Shown here: positions 4,432-18,012 of the stretch, piece by piece
How positions within the stretch are numbered: the first letter of the stretch is position 1
Layout of the letters: every line of letters starts with the position of its first letter
Virus record (IMG/VR): IMGVR_UViG_3300018065_000643
Coordinates: 1 to 23,233 of that record
Source: a virus
Length of the DNA: 23,233 nt
Strand: one strand, 5' to 3'
The notes under the pieces: generated by a model
The model's database searches: none
Told to the model about the DNA's origin: nothing
The model's input: only the letters and a program-made list of their open reading frames with translations
Position numbers and translations under genes: made by a program

Positions 4432-5676
4432 CTATCCTCCGATCAAGCTCATGAGTTCTTGTCTGGCAGATGGTTGGGTGAGGAAAACTCCTCGTAGACT
4501 GGATGTGACCATCTTTGCCTGTGTTTTGATTCCTCGCATTTGCATACACATGTGCTCTCCGGTAATACTAACCCCTACCCCTTTAGCCCCAGTGAAGTTA
4601 ATAATAAAATCGACTATGTCCTCCCCCAATTGCTCTTGAAGAATAGGACGCTTACCCAGAAGAACAGCGGCCCTGGGAAGTTTACTGGCTCCCAACACCC
4701 GATCTTTTGGAATGTAGCCGATTGATATATTGTACTTGACCGGTAGTAAATGATGAGGGCACATGCTCCAACACAGAATATTTTTGACCACAATCATTTG
4801 ATCATTGTCACATGGAAATGTTTTTGACAGATGTTCTCTCAGTTCCTCCTCCGCTTCCGGTAAAAGTCCCTCAAGTATTTCCCGGTAGGCCTTGGCGACT
4901 CTTTTCGGGGTTTCAAAAAAGTTATCATCCTGTATGTCAACTTTAAGACCATGTAAGATAAATCTGACCCCCCTCTCGATTGCCGGAGGACTAAACTTGT
5001 TTCTATACTTTGCGGCCTTTGCTTTATGCAAAGTTGCATGGCATGCAGAACATACGATTTGAAGGTTTTCAATATCGTTGTTATTCGGGTTTTCATCCTT
5101 ATGGTGAACTATCAACCCTTCAGCATCATCCTCTGAAATGTTACAAATATCACAGATGTTGGGAAGATGAGCAAATGCTTTGATTCGATAATTAGAAGCA
5201 TTCATTTGCGAATATTCAATATAACAATCATGACAACAGAACTTACCGGATCTATCCGATGGGGTGTATTGAAACTCCCTACCACAATTTTCACAGGTAC
5301 TATTGTTATGATTTTTGGGATCTCTTGGTCTGCCAATTAGAGGTGGAAACAACTCTCGTTCAAGAGCTCTTGCCTCTCGTTTTTCCTGAGACCCCCGTTT
5401 GATTAATAGTCTTTCAGGATTGTTCCCCCAGTCATTTTTTGCTTTTTCAGATTTGATACTTTTCAATTCCTCCCCTTTCTTTTTGCCATAAACCTCTTCG
5501 TATGATTTGTTTTTAAGATGTCTCACTCTCTTAGCAGCGAGACCCGGCATATCAATAGTGGCCCCAGGGAACAACTTTTTATACTCCTCTATAGTTGTTT
5601 GATGTGCACTAATTAAGTGTGTATTAGTTATCCGCTTGAACTCTTTTTCACACAATAGGCACTTTATTTTTTGCAT
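4432..5676 (-). CDS. folE: HNH endonuclease fused in frame to GTP cyclohydrolase I
   Basis: 414 residues. Residues 1-40 look like a MucR-type zinc module (CLLC, HLISAH, EEYKKLFPGA). C128, C131, C147/C148 and C151 form a second zinc site. Residues 173-217 are an HNH module (CDIC, VHHKDENPNNNDIENLQIV, CSAC, H217). Residues 230-414 are a near full-length FolE: ETPKRVAKAY, SMCPHHLLPV with C306 and H309, GASKLPRA, and EHMCMQMRG with C377, so the zinc ligands are intact. FolE converts GTP to dihydroneopterin triphosphate, the first step to preQ0. No ATG, GTG or TTG with a ribosome binding site is seen at the domain junction, so one fused product is expected. It overlaps the phosphoribosyltransferase by 13 bases. 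Confidence 0.9.
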   Translation of the reverse strand: MQKIKCLLCEKEFKRITNTHLISAHQTTIEEYKKLFPGATIDMPGLAAKRVRHLKNKSYEEVYGKKKGEELKSIKSEKAKNDWGNNPERLLIKRGSQEKREARALERELFPPLIGRPRDPKNHNNSTCENCGREFQYTPSDRSGKFCCHDCYIEYSQMNASNYRIKAFAHLPNICDICNISEDDAEGLIVHHKDENPNNNDIENLQIVCSACHATLHKAKAAKYRNKFSPPAIERGVRFILHGLKVDIQDDNFFETPKRVAKAYREILEGLLPEAEEELREHLSKTFPCDNDQMIVVKNILCWSMCPHHLLPVKYNISIGYIPKDRVLGASKLPRAAVLLGKRPILQEQLGEDIVDFIINFTGAKGVGVSITGEHMCMQMRGIKTQAKMVTSSLRGVFLTQPSARQELMSLIGG

Positions 5677-7454: not shown

Positions 7455-7507
7455 CTTTACTCCTCCCAAAAATCCAAAAATTAAAGTTAACTTCCTGATT
7501 CACCACC

Positions 7508-7536
7508 ATTATACTAAATCCAGATCGTTTGTGCAA
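7508..7536 (-). promoter_or_regulatory. Sigma70-like promoter P(queC operon)
   Basis: On the minus strand: -35 TTGCAC (7536-7531), 17-base spacer, -10 TATAAT (7513-7508), with an A/T-rich AAATAATTTT block directly upstream. The 34 bases 7504-7537 are identical to 9621-9654. Transcription would start near 7500 and enter the gene at 7454. The promoter begins at the queE stop codon. Confidence 0.85.
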
Positions 7537-7543
7537 AAATTAT

Positions 7544-8215
7544 TTACTTTTTTTCATTTAGATCCAAAACTTTATGAAGTTGGAAATTCAGAATGACATC
7601 ATAGACCTTGGCCTCCAGGAGCCACCGGATTAATTCATTCGGACTCAACTCACCATACCAAGGGGAAAATGCAAAATTGACTCTTGAGTGGGCAATGGTT
7701 TGGAGCGTGTGTTTAACACTCAAGGCCATGGTCAGATCTTCTTCGTCCTTGACGACGAACTTGACAAAATCATTCCCACCCAGTTCCAGAAAAGTGTCAT
7801 ACTGCATTTCCTTCATACAACCTGAACTTGGGAGTTTATAGTCAACTACCCATGAACCCACTCCATACCCTTTGCATGGAAGTGAACCATTTGTTTCGAC
7901 AGACACTTTATAATTAGACCAGTAAAGTCTCTGAGTCAACTCGTAGAAGTCTCTTGCCTGCATCAAAGGCTCACCACCAGTGATGGTTACATTTTTATTG
8001 CCCAGCCCTTTAATTTTTTGTACGACATCATCTATAGTCATCTCTATTCCTGAAGTTGGAGATAGAGCATAACCGGTATCACAATAAGTACATGGGTGTT
8101 TCCCAAAACTTTTATCAAAGTTACAACCGGAAAAACGCACAAAAGTAGTCAATCTACCCTGGTGAAATCTATTGACCTCACCATCACAACTTGGAAATAT
8201 CGAGTAAATTCTCAT
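7544..8215 (-). CDS. queE: 7-carboxy-7-deazaguanine synthase QueE (radical SAM)
   Basis: 223 residues. Converts 6-carboxytetrahydropterin to 7-carboxy-7-deazaguanine. The iron-sulfur ligands are C31, C42 and C45 in a CX10CX2C spacing, longer than the usual radical-SAM CX3CX2C; expanded spacings are known among QueE proteins. TITGGEPLMQ at 77-86 is the SAM-binding GGE motif; VSVETNGS and WVVDYKLPSSG follow. The start MRIYSIFPS is at 8215; it overlaps the small gene at 8184-8375 by 32 bases. The stop codon abuts the promoter at 7508-7536. Confidence 0.93.
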   Translation of the reverse strand: MRIYSIFPSCDGEVNRFHQGRLTTFVRFSGCNFDKSFGKHPCTYCDTGYALSPTSGIEMTIDDVVQKIKGLGNKNVTITGGEPLMQARDFYELTQRLYWSNYKVSVETNGSLPCKGYGVGSWVVDYKLPSSGCMKEMQYDTFLELGGNDFVKFVVKDEEDLTMALSVKHTLQTIAHSRVNFAFSPWYGELSPNELIRWLLEAKVYDVILNFQLHKVLDLNEKK

Positions 8216-8375
8216 TCGGTTCCATGTCCTCCTGAATCAGTTCATTAAATCGGTCGTGGTTACCAAACATATTGTCCTGGAGGAAGAAGTAAGAAAACAA
8301 TACTTTAGAACCGGCTTTTCCCAACAAACCAATACGACTGATATTGCCTCCTCCGAAGGCAAGATATATTCTCAT
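8184..8375 (-). CDS. Small DpdA-N-terminus-like paralogue (copy 5), 63 aa
   Basis: Begins MRIYLAFGGGNISRIGLLG and continues KVLFSYFFL, then HDRFNELI. The pattern matches the small proteins near dpdA and the clamp, over 5.7 kb away, closest to the 892-1122 copy (IYFAGGGG, EDRFKEDI). It lies between queD and queE, starting 4 bases after the queD stop and overlapping queE by 32 bases. The reading frame is intact and co-directional. Function unknown. Confidence 0.72.
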   Translation of the reverse strand: MRIYLAFGGGNISRIGLLGKAGSKVLFSYFFLQDNMFGNHDRFNELIQEDMEPNENLLDISKL

Positions 8376-9576: not shown

Positions 9577-9624
9577 TATTCCCTCCATTGTCGATATTGT
9601 TTACTTATTCTCTCTCACAACACC

Positions 9625-9653
9625 ATTATACTAAATCCAGATCGTTTGTGCAA
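9625..9653 (-). promoter_or_regulatory. Sigma70-like promoter P(queD-queE operon)
   Basis: Minus strand: -35 TTGCAC (9653-9648), 17-base spacer, -10 TATAAT (9630-9625). The 34 bases 9621-9654 are identical to the queC-operon promoter, spacer included. It starts right at the stop codon of the ATPase gene and would drive the gene at 9576 and the genes through queE. Confidence 0.85.
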
Positions 9654-9658
9654 ATTAT

Positions 9659-10948: not shown

Positions 10949-11010
10949 AAAACTCTCCTATCCAAAACTATCGTTTATATCCTGTTTCTCTGCTGTTCTT
11001 TTTCAAACCC

Positions 11011-11058
11011 ATATCCTATATCCAATTTTTAATTTAACCGTACTCTCATGGACCTCAG
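11011..11058. repeat. 48-bp dispersed repeat, copy B
   Basis: Identical over 48 bp to 894-941, in the same orientation. It lies in the 148-bp gap between the winged-helix gene and the ATPase gene. Read on the minus strand it keeps the frame EVHESTVKLKIGYRI seen in copy A, but there is no start codon here. Confidence 0.85.
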
Positions 11059-11085
11059 ATAAGGAGAAACTGATTTTATGGGTCC

Positions 11086-11120
11086 ATTATATCCGGTTAT
11101 TTTCCATGCTTCAGTCTATA
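11086..11120 (-). promoter_or_regulatory. Possible weak promoter before the ATPase gene
   Basis: On the minus strand a perfect -10 TATAAT followed by GG lies at 11091-11086, just after the stop codon at 11097, the same placement as the stronger promoters. The candidate -35, CTGAAG with 17-base spacing, is poor. Confidence 0.35.
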
Positions 11121-12578
11121 ATCCTTCCAACGCATCTCTTTTGGCGGATACCCTTTACTCATCATGAATTGATCTTTGAGAAACTTTGGGAGGAGTTCTT
11201 CATAAGTCTTTGCTGATACTAAGTAAGTCAGGCTCGGCTCATAGTCCGGACCGATTGATGAGGATATGGCTCTAAACAATAACTTTACCCAGAGAATCTT
11301 AGGATCGTTTTTCATCCAGCGTATTGGTGAACTCTTACCGGAACCTACACCGTAAACATCTATGAATTGATTGAGTCGTTTAGAAGCTTCGATGAGTAGG
11401 TTTCTGTTTGCTATGGACAACCCATTTTTCATCATAATCAGAGAGCCTTGAAATCTGACTTCTTCATACTCACCCTCAGCATAGGGTGATGTTCCATTTG
11501 ATGTTCTTTGATTGGGTCGGAGTAGCATATCTTCGAACTCTTTTGTCCACTCTGGAAAGTCATCGGTTTTAACGGCACCGTACTTTTTGTCAAGGTAAAC
11601 TTGAGATTTCATACATTCATTCAGCCATACAACATTTTTCGTGATAATATTATTTGGGAATATTCTCTTTTTTGTGTTTGCTGATAGTCCGTTCAAGAAC
11701 TCATCGAAGCCTACTCTATGGCCGGGTGTTTCCTCATTTAGAGCATAGTTGAATTTGTCGGAGAGTAGGCTGTCGTAAACATCAATAGCTGTTTTGATCT
11801 TAGATACACCATAGCCATCTTGAGCAAGGAGCTTTGGTAAGTATCTTGTTGTTACTTTTGTATAGGGACCTTTCGGAGGATCACCATTCTTAGGTATTGT
11901 AAGCTTTCTTGTAGTAGGTTTACTATTCCAGTGTTTTATGATCTCACGAATAGAGACACTATAAGGGTTGGTTCTGTTTTTAGTAGCAGGCTTAGTAGTA
12001 GGAGTTGATAAGGTAGCAGTAGCAGTTCTTCTTTTCAGCTTCACCGGAGTAGCAGTGTCTTTGATAGAGGAGACAGAGTTTTTGTGCACCGCAGGTGCTT
12101 GACACTTTAGTGTCATCTCATTCTTAATATCCTCCTTCTTAATACCTTTTGAAAAAACAAAAGCCTGCCTTTTAAAATTTTGAAAGGCAGGCTTTTGTGA
12201 TCTTTTAATTTCCTTATATTGTTTTGCTTTTAAATAGTAGTCAGTAGCATATTGCCGGTGATGTTCTGTAAAGCCACAGTCAACGAGGACTCTTTTCCGC
12301 CCATCAAATGATTTTTCCTTTATGTAGCCTTGTTTTTTGAGATTAGTGATGGCCAAACTCACAGTTGTTTCCTTACAATTATTCATGTATGCTATGTATG
12401 CATTACTGGGGAAACAGTCTTGATTATTCCTCCAGTAATTACTAAGAAACCACCAAATTCGTATCTCTTTATCTGATAAGTTTGGGTTGAAGAAAATCTC
12501 CCCTTCTATCCAAGCCCCCTTATGGGCCTGACCTTCAGTTTCGTCAACTTCATTTATTGTCGGATCATTTGTTATCAT
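11097..12578 (-). CDS. Winged-helix replication initiator-like protein with internal repeat linker
   Basis: 493 residues. Residues 20-100 are a winged-helix module of the HTH_36/replication-initiator kind (LSDKEIRIWWFLSNYW, then AYIAYMNNCKETTVSLAI, wing KEKSFDGRKRVLV). A basic stretch, then a Thr/Ala-rich linker (161-190) shared almost word for word with the neighbouring 12575-13261 product. The C-terminal 300 residues (REIIKHWNSKP, LSANTKKRIF) are unrecognised. The start overlaps the preceding gene by ATGA. Oddities: a full terminator-like hairpin is coded within residues 127-142, followed by AAGGAGG and an in-frame Met155, so a shorter product is conceivable. Confidence 0.78.
   Translation of the reverse strand: MITNDPTINEVDETEGQAHKGAWIEGEIFFNPNLSDKEIRIWWFLSNYWRNNQDCFPSNAYIAYMNNCKETTVSLAITNLKKQGYIKEKSFDGRKRVLVDCGFTEHHRQYATDYYLKAKQYKEIKRSQKPAFQNFKRQAFVFSKGIKKEDIKNEMTLKCQAPAVHKNSVSSIKDTATPVKLKRRTATATLSTPTTKPATKNRTNPYSVSIREIIKHWNSKPTTRKLTIPKNGDPPKGPYTKVTTRYLPKLLAQDGYGVSKIKTAIDVYDSLLSDKFNYALNEETPGHRVGFDEFLNGLSANTKKRIFPNNIITKNVVWLNECMKSQVYLDKKYGAVKTDDFPEWTKEFEDMLLRPNQRTSNGTSPYAEGEYEEVRFQGSLIMMKNGLSIANRNLLIEASKRLNQFIDVYGVGSGKSSPIRWMKNDPKILWVKLLFRAISSSIGPDYEPSLTYLVSAKTYEELLPKFLKDQFMMSKGYPPKEMRWKDYRLKHGK
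12013..12099. repeat. Linker repeat, copy 1 (44-bp plus 51-bp blocks)
   Basis: The 44-bp block 12013-12056 equals 12618-12661, and the 51-bp block 12049-12099 equals 12684-12734. In copy 1 the blocks overlap by 8 bases; in copy 2 a 22-base stretch separates them, adding ten residues. Both copies encode Thr/Ala-rich linkers with KLKRRTATAT and APAVHKNSVSSIKD. GTAGCA hexamers within could promote slippage. Confidence 0.9.
12100..12115 (-). other. Perfect 6-bp hairpin with TAAA loop beside linker repeat 1
   Basis: Minus strand TGACAC-TAAA-GTGTCA. It abuts a second small hairpin (GCACC-TGC-GGTGC, 12098-12086) inside the repeat. The matching site beside repeat 2 also has a TAAA-loop hairpin but with different arms. 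Confidence 0.6.
12152..12198 (-). terminator. Terminator-like hairpin inside an open reading frame
   Basis: A 16-bp perfect stem (12198-12183 with 12172-12157; core GCCTGCC/GGCAGGC), a 10-base loop, and then TTTTTT (12157-12152, the first T belonging to the stem) on the minus strand. This has the form of an intrinsic terminator but sits in frame within the 11097-12578 gene, coding KPAFQNFKRQAFVF. It could attenuate the gene or mark a past junction between two genes. Confidence 0.7.
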
Positions 12579-13261
12579 AGTGTCACCAAGCCGGATTGAG
12601 TATTACTTGGTTGGATAGTAGCAGTAGCAGTTCTTCTTTTCAGCTTCACCGGAGTAGCAGTTGTACTATCAGGAGGAGTAGCAGTAGCAGTGTCTTTGAT
12701 AGAGGAGACAGAGTTTTTGTGCACCGCAGGTGCTGTGTTACCTTTAGGTAACACTATGGTCTTATTTTCTATAGTCTTATTATTATAATATAACCATGCA
12801 AACAATGTCTTTAAATCCATGTTTTTCATGGTTTTGGTTATGAAGCTTTTTTTACCGGTCTCTTGTTCTATTTCTTCATCTTTGTTGTTTATGGCAATTG
12901 TCAGATCTACCAGGAGTTGTAAGTTTATTGAATAGTAGTTCCTCGGGGGAACCCCTTGACGCACTGCAGATATTATATTTAACTCTGAAAATTGTTTTAT
13001 TATAGTGGTTTGGGTTAGAGGTGATATTCTTGTCCGTTGTTCGATTTTCGATTGATCACAGTGGAATGCATGGCAGGGTCTTAACTTCTTTTTTTCAATT
13101 AGTTCCTTTCTATGATCGAGCAGAGCAGTAAGCCACAAAGAGTGTGTACCACCAAAAGCCCTGCATAGTTCCTTGCTGTATTGCCACCATCCTGTACTAA
13201 AGGTAGCCAGATTTTCTGATTCAGGGTATACACTATCTGGATTGTCATTTTGAATGTCCAT
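12575..13261 (-). CDS. Winged-helix replication-type protein with shared repeat linker
   Basis: 228 residues from the ATG at 13261, which follows AAAGGAG. Residues 25-125 look like a winged helix (SLWLTALLDHRKELIEKK, QTTIIKQFSELNIISAVRQG, RNYYSINLQLL), as in phage/plasmid replication initiators. The C-terminal 55 residues are the APAVHKNSVSSIKD / KLKRRTATAT linker duplicated in the next gene, after which it ends without a C-terminal domain. It may be a truncated relative or a partner of the 493-residue protein. The 4-base ATGA overlap indicates coupled translation. Confidence 0.75.
   Translation of the reverse strand: MDIQNDNPDSVYPESENLATFSTGWWQYSKELCRAFGGTHSLWLTALLDHRKELIEKKKLRPCHAFHCDQSKIEQRTRISPLTQTTIIKQFSELNIISAVRQGVPPRNYYSINLQLLVDLTIAINNKDEEIEQETGKKSFITKTMKNMDLKTLFAWLYYNNKTIENKTIVLPKGNTAPAVHKNSVSSIKDTATATPPDSTTATPVKLKRRTATATIQPSNTQSGLVTL
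12618..12734. repeat. Linker repeat, copy 2
   Basis: Second copy of the 44-bp and 51-bp blocks of 12013-12099, in direct orientation about 600 bases away, with a 22-base insertion between the blocks. It encodes the C-terminal linker of the 12575-13261 product. Confidence 0.9.
12735..12754 (-). other. Perfect 8-bp hairpin with TAAA loop beside linker repeat 2
   Basis: Minus strand GTGTTACC-TAAA-GGTAACAC, in the same position relative to the repeat as the hairpin at 12100-12115, with a different stem sequence but the same loop. Confidence 0.6.
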
Positions 13262-13292: not shown

Positions 13293-13601
13293 CTAATTCA
13301 TTAGTAAATCTAATCTGGCACCATAGTTCTTTTCGATAGGAACAAATCTTACTTCCAGAAGTTCCACATATTCGTCGTGTTGTTTGATACAATTATGTTC
13401 TTCGAGTTCAGTTAAAAGTTTGTTTACTTTTTGGGTTTTCATTCCACAACAGATGTCAGCAATTTTTTTGACTGTTTTCTTGGTTGGATTCAGATACAGG
13501 TGTATAAGACCGAATAATACTTTTGCGTTTGAACTTAGCGATGGGTTGAAAGCAATTTGTGCTGTTACTGTGATTTCATCTGGTACGTATCGTGGTTCCA
13601 T
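13293..13601 (-). CDS. Small winged-helix protein (HTH_36-like), 102 aa
   Basis: A compact winged helix: FNPSLSSNAKVLFGLIHLYL (helix 1), KTVKKIADICCGMKTQKVNKLL (helix-turn-helix), LEEHNCIKQHDEYVELLEV (wing). The opening ITVTAQIAFNPSLS resembles the WIEGEIFFNPNLS start of the 493-residue protein, so the two may be related. The ATG at 13601 with GGGAGG upstream is preferred to a TTG at 13619. Probably a DNA-binding replication or regulatory protein. A structured RNA with a U-tract lies directly before it. Confidence 0.75.
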   Translation of the reverse strand: MEPRYVPDEITVTAQIAFNPSLSSNAKVLFGLIHLYLNPTKKTVKKIADICCGMKTQKVNKLLTELEEHNCIKQHDEYVELLEVRFVPIEKNYGARLDLLMN

Positions 13602-13617: not shown

Positions 13618-13715
13618 AAAAAAATCCCATATACGACTCAAGGTGAATGGCAGATAACGGATTTGCCACCACAAAGGTGGAAGGGATAACCATCCACCCT
13701 GAGTCCTATATGGGA
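13618..13715 (-). ncRNA. Long-stem RNA structure ending in U7 (terminator, attenuator or small RNA)
   Basis: On the minus strand, 13715-13690 pairs with 13650-13625: 9 bp, one G-G mismatch, 6 bp, then 10 bp including two G-U wobbles. The wobbles would be A-C mismatches on the plus strand, favouring a minus-strand RNA. The apical region has a smaller CCACC/GGTGG hairpin (13680-13666). Seven Us (13624-13618) follow. The gene at 13601 starts just beyond. A weak promoter-like GTGACA-N17-TTTATT lies at 13743-13715. Confidence 0.65.
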
Positions 13716-13759
13716 ATAAACTATTTGTGTATTCAATTGTCACCGTTATCTATTCCTTC

Positions 13760-13794
13760 CAGGTAGGAGAGGCTCCCTCAAACCTCTCCACCTG
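13760..13794 (-). other. 12-bp stem-loop with one bulged base
   Basis: Minus strand CAGGTGGAGAGG (13794-13783) pairs with CCTCTCCTACCTG (13772-13760), with one bulged base and a 10-base loop. No U-tract follows. It lies in the 265-bp gap between primase and the small winged-helix gene, upstream of the long-stem RNA. The rest of that gap (13795-13866) is AT-rich with no gene seen. Confidence 0.55.
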
Positions 13795-13866
13795 TTAAAT
13801 AATATATTGTCCCTCCGAAAAAATAAAGAAGTTACTTCATGTGATTTTAAATAAACTATAAATAAG

Positions 13867-14766
13867 TTAAAGTCTCAACTCTTTCCGTAAAGATGTTACG
13901 ACATCGGGTGGCAGTTCTGCTGGGTCCCCTTCGGATAGAGTTACTACTTCCACATGCCTTTTTTTTCTTTGTAGCATGGTGCATAACTCTATGGCTTTGT
14001 CGGTAGCATCGGAATCAAACATGATGAACAGATTCTTAACCCTGGTTAGTAGACTCTTTTGTTCTTGAGTGAGCATTGTTCCGAACGAGCCTATAGCCCC
14101 GTGTCCTATGTTCCAGACATCCATTATCCCTTCTACTAATACCGCTGTATCTCTGATTCTGTCATACCCATACAAGGTATGTTTGATAGGAACCACGGCT
14201 TCTCTATCCGGTAGATGACGATACTTGATCTCGGCTTTCCCAGTTACATCTCTCGATGTGAAGGTTACGATCTTTCCCTCAAACTGCACTGGAATAATGA
14301 TTCTGAATTTCCATTGACCAAGGTTCCTGGTAAATTTCAATCCGAACTCCTTGGTAAGCATATCAGAATCGAACCCTCTCCCCTCCAGGTACGTCTTATG
14401 AAGTTTAGGGATATCATTCTCCATATATTTGGGCCACACGATTCTGGTAGGGTTGAGGTCCGTTTTCTTTGGTTTCTTGGTATCCAGAATATCCAGAGTG
14501 AACTCAGTGATTGTATCCCTTGCTTCCTGCCAGGAGCAGCTATCAATCTCTTGAATCAGATTTACCGGATTTGATTTTTTACCACAAATCCAGCAATTAC
14601 CAAAGCCGGAGTTGAGATTGATACCAAAGTGATACGATGGATCATTGCCGCAGAATGGACAGTTGATTTCAACCCAGCCCTCCGTTACATTTTTTCCACT
14701 GGTTTTATACTCTATATCTCTGTCTTCTAAAAAAGAGACAACATCAAAGTTTGAGTAATCAGCCAT
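13867..14766 (-). CDS. DnaG-type primase
   Basis: 299 residues. Synthesises RNA primers for replication. The N-terminal CHC2-type zinc finger has C36, C39, H46, C58 and C61 (INCPFCG, YHFGIN, NCWICGKK). The TOPRIM domain has VLVEGIMDVW with E212 and D216, and FIMFDSDATD with D251 and D253. It is shorter than bacterial DnaG and lacks a helicase-binding C-terminal domain, as in many phages. It lies 6 bases after the SF2 helicase gene. Confidence 0.9.
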   Translation of the reverse strand: MADYSNFDVVSFLEDRDIEYKTSGKNVTEGWVEINCPFCGNDPSYHFGINLNSGFGNCWICGKKSNPVNLIQEIDSCSWQEARDTITEFTLDILDTKKPKKTDLNPTRIVWPKYMENDIPKLHKTYLEGRGFDSDMLTKEFGLKFTRNLGQWKFRIIIPVQFEGKIVTFTSRDVTGKAEIKYRHLPDREAVVPIKHTLYGYDRIRDTAVLVEGIMDVWNIGHGAIGSFGTMLTQEQKSLLTRVKNLFIMFDSDATDKAIELCTMLQRKKRHVEVVTLSEGDPAELPPDVVTSLRKELRL

Positions 14767-16140: not shown

Positions 16141-16170
16141 ATTATACCCGAACCAGATTGTTTTGTTCAA
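16141..16170 (-). promoter_or_regulatory. Sigma70-like promoter P(helicase-primase)
   Basis: Minus strand: -35 TTGAAC (16170-16165), 18-base spacer, -10 TATAAT (16146-16141). It shares AAATAATTTTTG and an ATCTGG in the spacer with the other two promoters. It overlaps the stop codon of the upstream gene. Confidence 0.8.
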
Positions 16171-16628
16171 AAATTATTTACAAACTCCCATAGTTCTTGA
16201 AATACTGCCTGGGTTTTTCTGGAGTTTCTCCATTGTTTCGCACAAAATCTGATTATTCGATGTTTTGATATGACACCTCTAACTGGGGAGATAATAGTAT
16301 CCAGTATCTCCGCTGGAGCATTCAAGCACAATTCGATCACATACTTTGCTTCATTTGATAGTGACTGGTAGGACTCTTTCTTTAGTAGAGCTTTTTCAGG
16401 GTCAGGATAGTGTGACAGAATATATTCACCAGGTTCTTCGTGTTCTTCCTTGATTGTTGTGTAAGAGTCGTGATTTGTAATATTAATAACATTTGCAATG
16501 TCCCATTCAGTCCATCTGGTGGACACACCGGGATTGTGACCACGGCAATATTTACTTTGTTTCTTTCCCGTTACTCTCACTGGTTTTCCACATCCACATT
16601 CACATAGGATTACTTGATTTGTTTTCAT
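16167..16628 (-). CDS. Hypothetical Cys-rich N-terminal protein, 153 aa
   Basis: Starts MKTNQVILCECGCGKPVRV with a following YCRGH, a small zinc-binding pattern (CxCxC...CxxH) common in phage DNA-associated proteins. The C-terminal part is helical (NEAKYVIELCLNAPAEIL, HRIIRFCAKQWRNSRK) and could be an HTH. The ATG at 16628 with AAGGAG is chosen; the frame extends to an ATG at 16676 located in a hairpin loop. The stop codon lies inside the next promoter. Function unknown. Confidence 0.75.
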   Translation of the reverse strand: MKTNQVILCECGCGKPVRVTGKKQSKYCRGHNPGVSTRWTEWDIANVINITNHDSYTTIKEEHEEPGEYILSHYPDPEKALLKKESYQSLSNEAKYVIELCLNAPAEILDTIISPVRGVISKHRIIRFCAKQWRNSRKTQAVFQELWEFVNNF

Positions 16629-17886: not shown

Positions 17887-17938
17887 ATTGATATACTCCT
17901 GTGACTATCAATTTTGAGCCCACTCAGACCCCTGGAGG

Positions 17939-17972
17939 TACGGTTAAATTAAAAATTGGATATAGGATATAG
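17939..17972. repeat. Dispersed repeat, copy C (inverted)
   Basis: TACGGTTAAATTAAAAATTG and the following GGATATAGGATATAGG are the reverse complement of the core of copies A and B. It lies in a gap (17887-18025) without a gene. The flanking CTGAGGTCCATGAGAG half of copies A and B is not conserved here. Confidence 0.85.
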
Positions 17973-18012
17973 GTCCGGATCTGAAGCCAGCCTCATTGAT
18001 CTGAGAGGTTCC

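Follow-up and report, generated by a model that had tools for sequence, protein, structure and literature searches.

A 265-nt gap between a DNA primase gene and a winged-helix ORF in the IMG/VR viral fragment IMGVR_UViG_3300018065_000643 houses a structured RNA, and the question raised by this locus is what an RNA in such a position would do. The fragment, referred to here in its entirety as the window, is 23,233 nt long (41% G+C) and carries nearly all of its genes on the minus strand. The original prediction had offered an attenuator, a small RNA or an origin transcript; the attenuator is the best supported of the three, and the origin transcript found no specific support. We propose that the element is probably the 5′ leader of a replication-initiator operon, acting as a transcription attenuator.

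Genomic setting

The minus-strand gene run leads from 7-deazaguanine genes through a helicase gene (16110–14773) and the DNA primase gene (13867–14766), which lies upstream of the leader, to the gap. The first gene after the leader is the winged-helix ORF (13293–13601; weak HTH_36), followed by two more initiator-like ORFs and a RepA-like ATPase.

Several other features of the window are of note. Two adjacent initiator-like genes contain identical linker DNA (12048–12099 and 12683–12734; 12013–12056 and 12618–12661), which suggests a recent duplication or an N-terminal domain exchange; in the related locus L119, a single 554-aa protein carries N- and C-terminal parts matching these two linker-sharing genes. 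A near-perfect terminator-like hairpin with a U tail (12157–12198, minus) lies inside the replication-initiator ORF 12578–11097. The translation of the minus-strand ORF 4432–5676 reads as an HNH-nuclease-like part fused to a GTP cyclohydrolase-like part, and four small minus-strand ORFs (681–881, 892–1122, 2301–2477 and 8184–8375) begin with MxIYLA or MxIFLA and are possibly N-terminal DpdA-like fragments or paralogues. A dispersed element of about 50–100 nt containing GGTTAAATTAAAAATTGGATATAGGATATAGG is found in both orientations, at 891–991, 11008–11108 (minus) and 17919–17974 (plus).

Anatomy of the leader RNA

Read on the minus strand, the leader begins with hairpin 1 (13794–13760), which would lie at the 5′ terminus of the RNA or close to it. 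This second stem-loop had been described as 12 bp long; it has in fact 15 bp with one bulge, and no U tail. Next comes strand A (AGAUAACGG, 13751–13743), the proposed antiterminator strand, and then B (13715–13689), the 27-nt 5′ arm of the long stem, which pairs with the 27-nt 3′ arm B′ (13651–13625). The 37-nt loop between the arms contains a 5-bp inner hairpin in the computed fold (CCACC/GGUGG, 13680–13666) and, adjoining B′, strand A′ (CCGUUAUCU, 13660–13652), which is complementary to A; AGATAACGG is found in the window at A and A′ only. This second helix, between the upstream strand and the terminator loop, was not part of the original prediction. The long stem comprises 26 pairs with one G-G mismatch and three G-U pairs, two internal and one at the loop end, so that the predicted 25-bp stem with two wobbles was right to within one pair, and the inner hairpin and the U7 tail (13624–13618) were both borne out. 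Directly 3′ of the stem follow U7, the Shine-Dalgarno sequence GGGAGGG (13613–13607) and the ATG of the winged-helix gene at 13601. The U tail, the Shine-Dalgarno sequence and ATG right after it, the gene direction and the wobbles agree that the minus-strand RNA is the functional form, as had been proposed.

The minus-strand fold (189 nt) has an energy of −78.6 kcal/mol (z −6.8), with none of 200 shuffles as good, and the plus-strand fold is also strong (z −5.8). The leader fold has the lowest energy among 2314 segments of 100 nt taken from both strands of the contig, and the long stem is the only one in the contig with a stem score of at least 45. An intrinsic terminator consists of a stem containing G+C and a U tract immediately after it, here present as the 26-pair stem and U7, and minimum-energy folds of the full-length leader gave the terminator every time. 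A simple terminator scan missed the long stem; its 37-nt loop is far above the usual size. The statement that the stem resembles no riboswitch class stands, as Rfam covariance models gave no family at the element (none at E ≤ 1) and none at the leader elements of relatives. In the same search, the contig of a related phage gave a hit to the Type-P5 twister ribozyme (L160, 1065–1119, plus; 55 bits).

Promoters and candidate features near the leader

Scans of the window leader found no consensus promoter; TATATT (13806–13801, minus) is a weak candidate −10 box with no good −35 box. Among relatives, a sense sigma-70-like promoter can be placed immediately upstream of A in most leaders (60 shuffles per leader; hand-combined p ∼0.001). 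On the antisense strand of 15 elements there was no enrichment of promoters of the sigma-70-like type, and a model with an antisense promoter is unsupported.

Elsewhere in the window, a sigma-70-type promoter (TTTTGCACAAACGATCTGGATTTAGTATAATGG and a variant) recurs before several genes, at 7501–7547, 9618–9657 and about 16162–16193 (minus). The exact TTTTGCACAAACGATCTGGATTTAGTATAATGG core is found in one other IMG/VR contig, L007 (2607–2632), which carries polymerase, clamp-loader, RecA-like and exonuclease genes and may represent a different piece of this phage type. Two candidates within the leader were discarded. A 10-nt match to the T7 promoter core (ATACGACTCA, 13631–13640, plus) lacks the initiation half and is attributed to chance, as is a 55-aa ORF (13743–13576) running through the hairpin, since ORFs of 50 aa or more number 105 in the window and are mostly spurious.

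Recurrence of the architecture in related phages

DNA similarity searches in phages found nothing for the element, and single-protein scans found no close relatives; alignments of conserved proteins succeeded. An alignment of DpdA-like transglycosylases led to 80 IMG/VR contigs, a primase alignment built from these contigs led to 80 loci, and a re-centred version led to further loci. The sequence of the element is shared with none of the relatives' loci. The closest relative, L119, has a primase 57% identical and no gap, the primase overlapping the next winged-helix ORF. The element is therefore not conserved by sequence and is missing from its nearest kin. Named phages with distant primases (L002–L006) have no such element, nor do many relatives that have a gap at the primase junction.

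What recurs is an architecture. In relatives, U-tailed stems of 13–33 bp with large loops and unrelated sequences precede replication-initiator genes, the long ones usually ending about 20 nt before the initiator start codon. Their common layout is A-B-A′-B′-U, in which the terminator loop and a stretch close upstream are complementary. A gap after the primase is common among the other relatives, and some of these gaps harbor stems of 30 bp with 59-nt loops (L123 and L125), 29 bp with a 47-nt loop (L124), 27 bp with a 49-nt loop (L188), 20 bp with a 37-nt loop (L185), 18 bp with a 22-nt loop (L146) and 14 bp with a 34-nt loop (L105 and L179). Across the window and 80 loci, mostly of about 10 kb, 9 of the 17 distinct stems scoring at least 45 lie no more than 400 nt downstream of a primase. 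PHROG and Pfam searches placed initiator or DnaD-like families downstream of most elements. The recurrence of the layout at such genes suggests a switch that turns the start of DNA replication on or off. On a contig binned as Sulfuricurvum (L200), an initiator-like ORF is preceded by a 28-bp stem (loop-upstream pairing p 0.08). Structural conservation, whose absence from relatives would have counted against the original prediction, is thus wanting in sequence and in the closest relative but present as architecture in more distant ones.

One further inverted repeat was seen at a primase junction. In L159, 187–377 nt past the primase stop, a long inverted repeat whose flanks are duplicated (TTGTTGTTTTATAATAAATAAAAATTATAATTAAT) is perhaps a mobile or repeated element.

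Pairing between the terminator loop and the upstream strand

To quantify the pairing, we used 16 junction hairpins chosen by stem, loop and U tail alone, regardless of loop-upstream pairing, at a single setting of thresholds of our own choosing. Their loops pair with the upstream segment above dinucleotide shuffles (Fisher combined p 2.8e-12), and matched loop-upstream partners exceed swapped ones (mean 23.5 versus 15.4; permutation p 5e-5, 16 hairpins). The helices range from 20 pairs including G-U in L105 through 14 in L179, 12 in L124 and 10 in both L123 and L125 to 9 in the window. Pairing is absent from 4 of the 16 (L126, L142, L152 and L169), and in L181, as in the window, it is marginal. 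For the window alone p is 0.05–0.06, and its own loop ranks third of 16; the argument for the window draws on its place in the architectural group. Downstream or far-upstream control sequence gave no excess pairing with the same loops, a contrast for which alone the Fisher value of 2e-16 should be read, as it comes from a set partly picked by pairing.

Among 86 such hairpins in 162 loci, most of the strongly pairing ones precede initiator genes, and most other terminators show no loop-upstream pairing. Three strongly pairing hairpins (L038, L145 and L160) stand before initiators, with no primase immediately preceding them in the stretch covered. The exceptions, among them L013, which precedes a ParB-like gene, and a number of borderline cases, are at about chance level. 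Among 22 unseen hairpins from later-fetched loci, 2 had p < 0.05, and both lie upstream of winged-helix initiators.

Predicted folding of the growing transcript

Partition-function folding of growing transcripts, free of pseudoknots, was carried out for the window with 5′ ends at 13866, 13796 or 13758. Before A′ is made, A is predicted to be partly held by a local hairpin (13756–13748 with 13721–13713). The predicted probability of A:A′ is 0.91–0.99 at 3′ ends 13652–13644, 0.6–0.95 at 13640 and 0 from 13636 onward. In most elements A:A′ is likewise predicted to dominate before B′ is made and to be gone once B′ is complete. The computations thus yield both helices, their order of formation and the same layout before the initiator genes of relatives, in unrelated sequences.

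These folds suggest how the leader could work. During transcription, A would pair with A′ in the future terminator loop, leaving B looped out in a read-through state. As B′ emerges, the much stronger B:B′ stem with U7 would form and halt transcription just before the initiator gene. Blocking A, or giving B′ time to invade, would turn the initiator off; a lasting A:A′ would leave it on. Our inference is that termination takes place in the cell, where A:A′ would oppose it and the ratio of the two states would be under regulation. The spacer between A and B is 5–9 nt in five relatives, too short for a helix of 20–33 bp, so in these the two states should exclude each other. It is 27 nt in the window, where both helices might coexist as a pseudoknot and exclusion is less certain. 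The A strands share no motif, which points to a regulator that acts by base pairing (an antisense or trans RNA) or to purely kinetic control in cis, and makes a conserved ligand or protein site less likely.

Alternative explanations

The hairpin could instead be a plain intrinsic terminator that ends the helicase-primase transcript, perhaps leaky for gene dosage, with no switching involved. We consider this possible, though rather unlikely. The strong stem and U7, the marginal A:A′ of the window taken alone and the sigma-70-like promoter upstream of the helicase (∼16193–16162) would all fit such a terminator; however, stems of 26–33 bp with loops of 37–59 nt are more than termination needs, and loop-upstream pairing across relatives would be left over. 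Relatives also have promoters between primase and hairpin, which assigns the hairpin to the leader of the next gene, and elements away from the primase still stand before initiators. A less probable alternative is that termination at U7 yields a stable small RNA whose targets would lie in trans, in the host or in co-infecting phages, with the downstream gene expressed by read-through only. The 5′ hairpin and 3′ terminator would make a compact leader RNA of about 175 nt, and hypervariable sequences would suit private trans targets, but no target was found and the tight coupling to initiator genes fits control in cis better. Finally, the stem could be a processing site for RNase III, or else a palindrome in the DNA, serving as operator or origin and bound by the winged-helix protein. 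This reading would agree with the nearly perfect 26-bp duplex, the good fold of the plus strand and the GATAAC copies on both strands, but is very improbable, as it explains neither the U tail nor the loop-upstream pairing, nor the G-U pairs, which on the opposite strand are A-C mismatches.

Relation to known systems and significance

Attenuators in initiator leaders are known plasmid devices, and the phage layout would operate in a similar manner to those of pT181 and pIP501. In the immunity system of satellite phage P4, RNA pairing (CI RNA) leads to early termination in the leader of the replication genes, and it does so through a separate small RNA. The phage leader described here resembles P4 in the predicted tie between RNA pairing and early termination in a phage replication-gene leader, and differs in that the separate small RNA is a P4 feature, none having been identified for this leader.

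In the repC leader of the Staphylococcus plasmid pT181, an intrinsic terminator lies just before the initiator gene, and a strand farther upstream offers a competing fold that prevents termination by capturing the 5′ portion of the terminator stem, under the control of antisense RNA (PMC4878617). The initiator-gene leader, the terminator just before the gene and the upstream strand in a competing fold are all features of the phage element too; unlike in pT181, A pairs with the terminator loop rather than with an arm, and a sigma-70-like antisense promoter was not found. In pIP501 (Inc18 plasmids), a 329-bp repR leader stands before the rate-limiting initiator gene; transcription can end prematurely in it, and control is exerted by the antisense RNAIII and by the repressor CopR (PMC4981023). 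The phage element is similar in its long leader with a terminator before an initiator gene, termination here being predicted, and dissimilar in that no counterpart of RNAIII or CopR was found. A terminator in the leader of an initiator gene is thus present in the window, where initiator-like winged-helix genes lie downstream, and in relatives. No anti-terminator was found that ties up the 5′ side of the terminator stem, nor, across 15 elements, a sigma-70-like antisense promoter facing the leader. Given the lack of arm capture and of such a promoter, we do not file the element as a member of the pT181/pIP501 type.

A tentative and somewhat doubtful extension of the attenuator reading is that these leaders belong to a class of RNA switch that is widespread in phages and defined by architecture alone (A-B-A′-B′-U-SD-initiator), with hypervariable, private pairing sequences; it would set initiator output through terminator-loop pairing, possibly as a sensor of copy number or superinfection incompatibility. 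The open-licence papers searched do not describe leaders of this kind in phages. Lacking sequence conservation, the element is invisible to homology-based RNA searches; a search by architecture, for a U-tailed stem whose loop pairs upstream, is able to find such leaders. The layout supplies a concrete, testable mechanism, and a recurring attenuator-like leader before phage initiators would link the control of phage replication to RNA switching.
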